Origin: a virus
Strand: one strand, 5' to 3'
DNA: 28,270 nt
Virus record (IMG/VR): IMGVR_UViG_3300032220_000943
Coordinates: 1 to 28,270 of that record
Shown here: piece by piece, positions 19,365 through 21,721 of the stretch
How the letters are laid out: the number at the start of each line of letters is the position of its first letter
Numbering within the stretch: position 1 is the first letter of the stretch
The notes under the pieces: model-generated
What the model was told of the DNA's origin: nothing
Databases searched by the model: none
What the model saw: only the letters and a program-made list of their open reading frames with translations
Program-made: the position numbers and the translations under genes

Positions 19365-20570
19365 ATGTCCACAGAAAATAAACTAATCTATTGTTCTTTT
19401 TGCAACACCCACAAAGACAAAGTTAAAAAGCTAATTGTAGGTGATGATGTTGCTATATGCAGCGATTGTATTGAATTATGCACCCAACTCATTGAAGATG
19501 ACAATTCAGTAGTTGAATCACCGCCCAAAGAAGAGGAAGTTAAATACGATCCTTCAAGTATTAAGGACTACTTAGATGTCCATGTCATAGGGCAAGATAG
19601 TGCCAAGACAGTACTAAGCGTTGCTATTGCTAATCATTACAAACGTATCACATACCCTTCCAAAGACTTAGATATACAAAAGGGTAATGTACTCATCGTT
19701 GGTCCTACTGGTAGTGGTAAAACATTACTTGCTAAGACTGTAGCAAAATATCTCAAAGTGCCCTTCGTAGTTGCTGATGCTACTTCATTGACAGAGGCTG
19801 GCTATGTCGGGGATGATGTTGAATCAATGATTAGTATGCTGGTTAATGCTGCAGGTGGTGATCCTAGATTAGCAGAACGTGGTATTGTTTTTGTTGATGA
19901 GATTGACAAGATTGCACGTAAAAGTGAAAGCACAAGTGTTACCCGCGATGTATCAGGTGAAGGGGTTCAGCAAGCATTGCTTAAGTTAGTTGAGGGTACA
20001 ATATGTCGTGTCCCGGCAGCAGGTGGTAGAAAGCATCCAGGTGGTGATATGTTAGAAGTTGATACGAAAAATATCCTATTCATATCAGGTGGAGCATTCG
20101 TTGGGTTGAAAGATTTGATCGGTAATCGTAAGAACGGAACAACTATCGGCTTTGGTGCTGATATTAAAGATAGTAAAAAAGAAGGTGATTTGAGTGAGGT
20201 TACACCTGACGATCTAACCAAGTATGGAATGATTCCTGAATTTATTGGTAGATTCACAACGACAGTAAGTATCAAAGAATTGAATAAAGAAGAATTATTA
20301 CGAGTACTTACAGAAGTAAAAAACAACTACATTGACCAATACAAATATCTATTAAGCATTGATGACATTAAATTAACATTTGCTGATGGAGCATTGGAGC
20401 AAATTGTTGAAAATTGTCTGTCTTTAAAGACCGGCGCACGTGGATTACATACTGAAATTGAGCGTTGCCTAATGCCCCATATGTTTAACACAAAAAAATA
20501 CAGAGAAAATAACATAACTGAGATAAATATAACAAGGGAGCAAGTTTTAGAACCAAAATCAATTATATGA
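19365..20570 (+). CDS. clpX: ClpX, AAA+ unfoldase of the Clp protease
   Basis: 401 residues (E. coli 424). It unfolds tagged proteins and feeds them into ClpP. The N-terminal zinc domain has Cys10, Cys13, Cys32 and Cys35. Walker A is GPTGSGKT (113-120) and Walker B is VFVDEID (175-181). The pore loop GYVG (146-149), the RKH loop (222-224) and sensor-2 GARGL (357-361) are all present. The ClpP-docking loop IGF (261-263) is conserved, so it should engage ClpP, whether the phage ClpP at 25115 or the host's. The start lacks a Shine-Dalgarno sequence. The stop overlaps the ATG of the bS21 gene (ATGA). Confidence 0.95.
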
Positions 20571-20788
20571 GTATAAAAGGAAGACGAGTTATTGTTACTG
20601 ACGGGAACGTTGATAAAGCATTACGTAAATTCAAAAAGAAGATAACAGACCAAAATCTGTTACAGGAATTGCGTGATCGGGAACAATATGTCAAACCTTC
20701 TATACAGCGTAAAGTGAATCATGGTTTAGCCAAACGCAGATGGCAAAAATACTTGCGTGACCAGAGTCTTCCCAAAAAACTATTTTGA
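20567..20788 (+). CDS. rpsU: Ribosomal protein bS21 homologue
   Basis: 73 residues. The core [20 protein letters not shown], then [14 protein letters not shown], and the basic C-terminus ending LPKKLF match bS21 in order and length (E. coli bS21 has 71 residues). bS21 sits on the 30S platform near the anti-Shine-Dalgarno end of 16S rRNA and helps initiation. Phage-encoded bS21 is known from large phages and is thought to steer ribosomes to phage mRNA. Here it is translationally coupled to clpX by ATGA, an unusual pairing. Confidence 0.88.
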
Positions 20789-20817: not shown

Positions 20818-20826
20818 TGATAGAAT
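20818..20826 (+). promoter_or_regulatory. Extended -10 promoter for hsp20
   Basis: TGATAGAAT has the extended -10 form TGn plus a hexamer (TAGAAT at 20821-20826). The start near 20833 gives a leader of about 60 bases. An overlapping AATAAATA (20824-20831) resembles a late box. No convincing -35 is present at 17 bp. Confidence 0.5.
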
Positions 20827-20835
20827 AAATACTTA

Positions 20836-20887
20836 TTGTAGATGCCGATGGTCGGGTCTACAATATAGTCATCTTGCTTAATAGGAG
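20836..20887 (+). promoter_or_regulatory. ROSE-like RNA thermometer in the hsp20 leader
   Basis: Two hairpins fill the leader. The first is TTGTAGA (20836-20842) paired with TCTACAA (20857-20863), with an inner CCGA/TCGG stem. The second pairs TTGCT (20874-20878) with the ribosome-binding site AGGAG (20883-20887) across a TAAT loop. The UUGCU opposite AGGA, with a G opposite G in the middle, is the signature of ROSE elements, which melt with heat and control small heat-shock genes in proteobacteria. The ATG is at 20894. The fold and response are predicted. Confidence 0.7.
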
Positions 20888-20893
20888 AAAAAT

Positions 20894-21352
20894 ATGACAA
20901 AAACTTTACACCTTCGTTCCCTTGACATTCCTCAACTTCACAAATTTGGTATCGGTTTTGATACTATGTTTGAAGATTTGAATAGAATGCATTTTCAACA
21001 TCAACAATCCAACACAAACTATCCGTTATATAACGTAGTCCAAATTACTGAGGACGAGTATATGATTAGTATTGCAGTGGCTGGGTTTGGTCTTGATAAT
21101 CTTTCAATAACAAAAGATAAAAACTTTTTGATTATTGAAGGTAAAAATACACTCAAGGAAGAAGATACACCTGAGATTAACTATCTACACAAGGGTATTA
21201 GCAATAGAGATTTCCGTCGTGAATTTAAACTTGCTGACCATGTTGATATTGTAAATGCTCATCTTGAATTGGGTATTCTTAATGTTCACCTAAAACGTGA
21301 AATACCCGAAGAACAAAAGCCCAAGTCTATTGCTATTACTTATAATAAATAA
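20894..21352 (+). CDS. Small heat-shock protein Hsp20 (alpha-crystallin family)
   Basis: 152 residues, the usual size of IbpA-type proteins. Hsp20 proteins hold unfolding proteins without ATP. The alpha-crystallin domain starts near YPLYNVVQITEDEYMISIAV and runs through NFLIIEGKN, FRREFKLADHVDI and LELGILNVHLKREIPEE, which contains the conserved G-I-L motif. A short tail ends KSIAITYNK with an I-x-I-like motif for oligomerisation. Hsp20 genes occur in T4-like cyanophages. Here the leader suggests heat control, and a terminator follows. The neighbours are clpX, bS21 and clpS. Confidence 0.92.
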   Translation: MTKTLHLRSLDIPQLHKFGIGFDTMFEDLNRMHFQHQQSNTNYPLYNVVQITEDEYMISIAVAGFGLDNLSITKDKNFLIIEGKNTLKEEDTPEINYLHKGISNRDFRREFKLADHVDIVNAHLELGILNVHLKREIPEEQKPKSIAITYNK

Positions 21353-21415: not shown

Positions 21416-21721
21416 ATGTCTAAAACAGAAACAAAAATCAAAATTAAGCCTAATCTTGCATTATCAGAGCCTCCATTATTCAAAATCATTTATATCAATG
21501 ATAATGTAACAAGTATGGAATTTGTCGTAGGTAGTTTAATTGATTACTTTAATTATAACCAAGATACTGCACAAACAATTACACATAATATACATGAAGA
21601 GGGTAGTGCTGTAGTTGCCGTTTTGCCCTATGAAATTGCAGAGCAAAAGGGTATTGAGGTTACACTTGACGCACGTAGTCAGGGATTTCCATTGCAAGTG
21701 AAAGTTGAAGCTGAGGCTTAA
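21416..21721 (+). CDS. clpS: ClpS, N-degron adaptor of the Clp protease
   Basis: 101 residues (E. coli 106). ClpS binds proteins with Leu, Phe, Tyr or Trp at the N-terminus and hands them to ClpAP. Conserved here are PPLFKIIYINDNVTSMEFV, with N-degron pocket residues Asn28, Asp29 and Thr32, and His60 in the later helix. The N-terminal extension needed for delivery is present, about 18 residues before PPLF and slightly shorter than in E. coli. No ClpA gene lies in this window, so it may use host ClpA or redirect it. The stop shares TTAA with a convergent gene. Confidence 0.92.
   Translation: MSKTETKIKIKPNLALSEPPLFKIIYINDNVTSMEFVVGSLIDYFNYNQDTAQTITHNIHEEGSAVVAVLPYEIAEQKGIEVTLDARSQGFPLQVKVEAEA

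Follow-up and report, generated by a model that had tools for sequence, protein, structure and literature searches.

A ROSE-type leader element upstream of phage hsp20 genes, a probable RNA thermometer

Described ROSE elements and phage thermometers

The ROSE elements of Pseudomonas, two-hairpin structures in leaders of 61-62 nt, are proven RNA thermometers (PMC3669281). The phage element described here resembles the Pseudomonas ibpA ROSE, to whose leader type the Rfam family RF02523 aligns (PMC3669281), in comprising two hairpins in a leader of about 60 nt upstream of an IbpA-type gene. It also shares the bulged G, a hairpin I of the UGCCG...CGG type and the motif U(U/C)GCU imperfectly paired with the Shine-Dalgarno (SD) sequence. 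Unlike the Pseudomonas elements it is phage-borne and preceded by late-promoter-like or sigma70-like boxes, has a weaker hairpin II core, scores below the Rfam cut-off and also occurs in front of dnaK and of small genes.

The classical ROSE elements of Bradyrhizobium hspA and E. coli ibpA (Rfam ROSE and ROSE_2) similarly block the SD sequence of a small heat shock gene by a 3' hairpin containing U(U/C)GCU with a bulged G, and the core of E. coli ibpA (UCUCGCU...AGGAG) is close to the form found in cyanophages. Whereas the classical bacterial elements are composed of three to four hairpins in longer leaders (PMC3669281), the phage element has two. The ROSE class as a whole covers 5' UTRs of about 60 to more than 100 nt with two to four hairpins, and the phage element, with its two hairpins directly before hsp20, falls within this range. 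Small heat shock genes are furthermore controlled at translation by thermometers in Synechocystis (hsp17) and in Anabaena, where one case has been called ROSE-like (PMC4166951). Synechocystis hsp17 has a single short hairpin, whereas the cyanophage leaders have two, with a bulged G in both.

The thermometers known from phages are those of lambda cIII, of SPbeta blyA (fourU) and of the sigma70 gene in gut Caudoviricetes (fourU) (PMC11182007, PMC10586365, PMC4166951). In these systems the temperature control of phage translation was demonstrated by experiment, whereas the hsp20 element is predicted; on the other hand, they are neither of the ROSE type nor linked to chaperone genes. The sequence-only reading that preceded this analysis knew of no well-described phage thermometer of the ROSE type, and we likewise found no ROSE element reported in any phage within the open-access papers searched in full text. 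The genome paper of phage Melnitz, for instance, mentions no thermometer, although it names hsp20 and a glutamine riboswitch (PMC9004378). Judged by the open literature searched, no phage ROSE element would have been described before the present one, whose new traits are a start-codon stem and additional chaperone targets. According to a review from 2014 ROSE elements are always tied to small heat shock genes (PMC4166951), and a later paper extends them to ABC transporters (PMC11342760). A ROSE element in front of phage dnaK, if true, would extend them to this gene as well.

The hsp20 locus and its two-hairpin leader

The window, i.e. the whole stretch of DNA analysed, is a virus record of 28,270 bases, in which the locus of interest comprises hsp20 and its leader. 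The gene is part of a small proteostasis cluster in the order ClpX-like ATPase, bS21 homologue, hsp20 and ClpS, with the following features:

19365-20570, + strand: gene of a ClpX-like ATPase (Pfam zf-C4_ClpX 1.1e-12, AAA_2 2.8e-30)
20567-20788, + strand: gene of a homologue of ribosomal protein S21 (bS21; Pfam Ribosomal_S21 5.3e-13), directly upstream of the leader
20825-20831, + strand: late-promoter-like box ATAAATA (TATAAAT in the T4 late consensus), 4 nt 5' of hairpin I
20836-20863, + strand: hairpin I, UUGUAGAU / GUCUACAA and CCG / CGG, with the loop AUGGU and the bulged G20844
20868-20872, + strand: GUCAU, forming the lower stem of hairpin II, able to pair with the start AUGAC at 20894-20898
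20873-20878, + strand: anti-Shine-Dalgarno CUUGCU with the ROSE motif U(U/C)GCU, G20876 bulged
20883-20887, + strand: Shine-Dalgarno AGGAG, paired to CUU(G)CU
20894-21352, + strand: hsp20, IbpA-like small heat shock protein of 152 aa (Pfam HSP20 7.9e-15)
21416-21721, + strand: gene of a ClpS adaptor, downstream of hsp20 (Pfam ClpS 4.6e-23)

The hsp20 product matches PHROG 432 Hsp20 (2.8e-37), and among the NCBIfam models it scores 118 bits with IbpA and 80 bits with IbpB, both under the cut-off. The bS21 homologue (20567-20788) ends about 50 nt 5' of the putative thermometer, and a similar gene was also detected before dnaK in a related contig (L062).

The ROSE-type element spans positions 20836-20898, between the bS21 homologue and hsp20. 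The stable 5' hairpin noticed in the sequence-only reading is present as hairpin I, which reads UUGUAGAU-G-CCG-AUGGU-CGG-GUCUACAA from 5' to 3' and is predicted at every folding temperature tried. Hairpin II (20868-20898) is the weaker 3' hairpin holding the SD sequence, and its proposed parts were all located: UUGCU at 20874-20878 within the anti-SD sequence, AGGAG at 20883-20887 and ATG at 20894. Since GUCAU can pair with AUGAC, so that the start codon can be included too, the element extends two bases beyond the end at 20896 given in that reading. Its naming of the ROSE type, with hsp20 as the target, was right, as was its placing of UUGCU opposite the SD sequence, whereas the register with a G opposite a G was replaced by the better supported one of C20873-U-U-(G20876 bulged)-C-U20878 on A20883-G-G-A-G20887, in which all five pairs are standard. 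This register is preferred because the third base, U or C, always faces a G and because the outer pair covaries in relatives. G20876 lies unpaired between two helices, and its flanking partners are paired in 98-100% of the unique sequences. The element is not of the fourU type, as the anti-SD sequence is CUUGCU and no UUUU lies opposite AGGAG.

Among all 4227 Rfam families the best match of the window was ROSE_3 (RF02523), with 28.3 bits and E=0.04 for the whole window or E=0.00043 for a stretch of 301 bases. The sequence-only reading had suggested a comparison with the Rfam ROSE models, and the leader indeed aligns to ROSE_3 at full length (model positions 1-69 of 69) with one non-standard pair, though its 28.3 bits do not reach the gathering cut-off of 43 bits. 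At gathering thresholds there was no Rfam match in the window nor in 20 related loci, suggesting that the curated cut-offs miss the phage forms. The likeness of the leader to ROSE_3 is real, though it lies outside the curated family. In Melnitz and C48C1, too, ROSE_3 matches at the start of hsp20, with 34.1 and 26.8 bits, respectively. As a yardstick only, the same tool gave 69.2 bits for the Pseudomonas-type ROSE of “Pseudomonas phage Y7” (L307, OQ572409.1), an UNVERIFIED record of 22.6 kb with an ibpA-like gene; this ROSE element and its gene may be host DNA.

A covariance model (R1) built from the close freshwater relatives, with the window excluded, found the leader site with 75.5 bits (E=6e-14), the next match in the window scoring 10.6 bits. 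When bacterial genomes were scanned for the freshwater core, 12 sites were obtained, of which only three, in alphaproteobacteria (L204, L208, L212), precede hsp20, while most of the others look like chance matches.

Covariation and distribution among phages

The close group consists of loci picked by the Hsp20 protein alone (67-91% identity), and the leader is the same in nearly all of them. In 35 distinct close-group leaders, the window left out, 98.3% of the cells of the two-hairpin structure are paired, as compared to 42-46% with one side slid, and changes on both sides occur in 80 cells (shuffled mean 26.7). The covariation in related phage leaders, which the sequence-only reading had proposed to check, is strong: both sides have changed at seven of the nine pairs of hairpin I in these protein-selected relatives. 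The GUCAU/AUGAC stem and the SD helix are near-invariant within the close group, and the GUCAU stem is without covariation there.

Four further groups were selected by their Hsp20 proteins, namely freshwater group 2, whose query is about 33% identical to the Hsp20 protein of the window, and the Mosig-like, P-SSM4-like and S-RSM4-like groups. Together the five groups amount to 389 viral loci whose upstream sequence is 60 nt or longer, and these yield 274 distinct leaders. Of the 274, 269 have a hairpin interrupted by a single bulged nucleotide, which is a G in 261 of them. After shuffling, the median score of the natural hairpins was attained in 0-0.4% of trials in groups 1-3 and in 4-9% in groups 4-5, where the stems are shorter. 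The motif [U/C]GCU...GGA with a start codon behind it occurs in all 274 distinct leaders, its conservation being partly by construction as the motif served as anchor. One close-group hsp20 leader (L061) passes the motif search by chance, the real element being located before the upstream dnaK. R1 also matches next to the start of hsp20 in every one of the 80 loci of freshwater group 2.

With the U(U/C)GCU motif being the search anchor, the free evidence for the bulged-G helix comes from the outer pair of hairpin II. Over 155 unique sequences this pair is C-G in 104, G-C in 27, U-G in 21 and of another kind in three, amounting to 98% paired, and HTVC103P adds an A-U form of the SD-pairing column (AUCGCU...AGGAU). 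These changes between C-G, G-C, U-G and A-U argue for hairpin II being a genuine bulged-G helix. The second base of the motif, in the same 155 sequences, is U in 105 and C in 50 and always lies opposite a G.

Judging from the sequences, a ROSE-type element is carried by nearly all protein-selected relatives across five divergent Hsp20 groups. A palindrome that arose before an ordinary SD sequence by chance and was inherited by close relatives through lineage inertia would fit both the Rfam score under the curated cut-off and energy tests that do not stand out (see below). However, this explanation is already contradicted by the two-sided changes at seven of nine hairpin I pairs and by the conservation across the five groups. 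Furthermore, the strict motif was found in only two of 114 other SD leaders of the close-group loci, both of them dnaK leaders. Chance or inertia is therefore hardly credible.

Among the phage isolates, with Y7 left aside, the per-locus search with R1 detected a match at the hsp20 start in 13 of 14: Melnitz (45.9 bits), S-CRM01, Bellamy, Mosig, S-RSM4, HTVC103P, HTVC115P, Syn33, Phosso, S-SCSM2R, S-SSM5, C48C1 and P-SSM4. Most of these scores are weak (11-25 bits), yet the position is identical each time. The usual cyanophage form combines a UUCG-type tetraloop with CUCGCUU. In S-TIM5 the per-locus search with R1 gave no match at the hsp20 leader, though its predicted fold comprises both hairpins of the same plan with a bulged G. 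The S-TIM5 leader (L296, 1374-1446) reads ACGCUU...AAGGUGG, in which A-U seems to have replaced the U-A pair adjacent to the bulge. A genome-wide search of the 14 isolates, with stricter filters by which several weak hsp20 sites of the per-locus search were lost, was also carried out; in the isolates searched the element was located before hsp20 only.

In contigs from IMG/VR the element also precedes other genes. Many freshwater contigs contain a second copy before a phage-encoded DnaK gene. In L061 it is a full-length dnaK (1112-2989) that has the element, and hsp20 follows directly without one of its own, while in L062 dnaK (1042-2931) and hsp20 each have one. A ROSE-type leader was likewise detected before dnaK in eight further phage contigs (L569, L574, L575, L576, L577, L101, L152, L291), where dnaK usually lies just upstream of hsp20. 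In freshwater group 2 dnaK lies upstream of hsp20 in 77 of 80 loci, and in 37 of 37 loci with a partial model match at the locus edge a dnaK start lies right behind it. One contig of 94 kb contains three elements, located before dnaK, hsp20 and a small gene of no assigned family, and in the large contigs G001, G004, G008 and G009 the element precedes another small gene family. The ROSE-led small genes lie on the + strand at L579 1555, L580 1562, L581 1556 and L583 1558, and also in L574 and L582 (MFKLPHIEV...).

The small proteins of the large phage contigs have 82-93 aa and begin with MFTLDATIDAVQ..., MFNSVIEAVQ... or MFKLPHIEV.... The name phasin-like was considered for them and dropped, as it was unsupported by Pfam, NCBIfam and PHROGs.

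The placement before dnaK bears on the possibility that the hairpins are the site of another regulator, such as a host RNA-binding protein or RegA, a translational repressor of phages, or that they shield the late mRNA at its 5' end, the likeness to ROSE being incidental. Hairpin I is strong and conserved and has a bulged G, so that it could be a protein site, and in several cyanophages the gene next to hsp20 on its upstream side encodes RegA. However, the U(U/C)GCU helix pairing with the SD sequence covaries at its outer pair and aligns to ROSE_3 at full length, an end-protecting hairpin would not need such a helix, and the presence of the same module before dnaK counts against an incidental site. 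We consider this explanation improbable.

Promoter boxes, probable temperature response and possible autoregulation

Most leaders of two groups have TATAAAT or ATAAATA no more than 30 nt before hairpin I (48 of 54 in the close group, 48 of 51 in the Mosig group), at a median distance of 11-11.5 nt counted from the start of the box. Freshwater group 2 instead has boxes of the form TTGACA-N16-18-TATAAT (41 of 55). With promoter boxes of either type at these positions the leader would begin at hairpin I, promoter use and transcription start being presumed from where the boxes lie.

With respect to the start codon, the AUG of the short Pseudomonas ROSE is predicted to be unpaired (PMC3669281), whereas in the freshwater phages the GUCAU stem would cover it. 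An upstream GTCA and an ATGAC start occur together in 98 leaders of the freshwater set, neither occurs in 10, and the mixed cases number 12 and 4; three of the four cases of GTCA without ATGAC are mis-called starts. The two are associated (Fisher p=2.6e-6), in a statistic that ignores kinship.

Taken as a whole, the element probably acts in cis as a ROSE-type RNA thermometer controlling the translation of the phage's own Hsp20. Transcription would start just 5' of hairpin I, from a promoter that is of the late type in this phage group, yielding a leader of about 60 nt in which hairpin I presumably is the stable fold keeping the register of hairpin II. At low temperature the SD sequence AGGAG would be hidden within hairpin II by CUU(G)CU, and the start codon by GUCAU/AUGAC, and warming would open the weak G-bulged helix and allow ribosomes to initiate. 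The role of hairpin I and the melting in the cell are inferred, and temperature would be the signal in vivo by virtue of the membership in the functional class of ROSE elements.

When the leader was folded at different temperatures, as the sequence-only reading had suggested, hairpin II became weaker with heat, like its counterparts in E. coli and Pseudomonas: between 20 and 37 C the energy of its core in the window goes from -3.3 to -1.2 kcal/mol, and from -6.5 to -2.9 kcal/mol with the start-codon stem included. On the other hand, the predicted accessibility of the SD sequence in the full leader barely changes with temperature. Most phage hairpin II cores are weaker than those of E. coli ibpA (-7.1 to -4.6 kcal/mol from 20 to 37 C) and of Pseudomonas (-7.3 to -4.4 kcal/mol), which would fit a lower working temperature. 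In most leaders the cost of opening the SD sequence is not above that of dinucleotide shuffles. Since the Pseudomonas ROSE control fails this test too, the test has little power and was not used as evidence.

Taking into account that lake or ocean temperature changes little during an infection cycle, a signal related to the infection could be the real one. The leader might be mainly autoregulatory, the phage Hsp20 binding its own ROSE-type leader and blocking translation until it is titrated by unfolded or aggregating proteins; such a leader would report the folding load in infection instead of or besides temperature. E. coli IbpA represses its own translation via the 5' UTR and requires Arg93 for it (PMC10474464). 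The phage Hsp20 is closer to IbpA than to IbpB, and 13 of 14 phage Hsp20 proteins share the arginine at the position of Arg93, where IbpB has Gln. However, an arginine of this type may be general in small heat shock proteins and is not diagnostic of autoregulation, and autoregulation and a thermometer are compatible with each other. A mainly autoregulatory leader seems rather unlikely, while self-repression by the phage Hsp20 is a live addition to the thermometer.

The widespread phage-borne element is a genuine ROSE type with a likely function as thermometer. Hsp20 belongs to the core genome of cyanophages, and a role in capsid maturation has been suggested (PMC3037559). A thermometer at hsp20, maintained across phages that infect cyanobacteria, SAR11, OM43 or uncultured freshwater hosts, would place the timing and amount of the chaperone under selection, and the leader would offer a direct handle on the effect of water temperature on infection. 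More tentatively, ROSE modules before hsp20, dnaK and small genes in one genome might form a regulon that tunes chaperones to temperature and, via the binding of Hsp20 to its leader, to folding load in T4-like and other aquatic phages, unnoticed so far in a core gene of cyanophages.

In relatives the gene 3' of hsp20, which is clpS in the identified cases, has a hairpin of its own, e.g. CAGTAGCGGGAC...GTCCCGCTACTG, just before the SD sequence AAGGA (L024 1155, L025 2514, L035 3512, L036 3510, L041 3512, L061 3509). It is a different leader structure, possibly regulatory or the terminator of hsp20.
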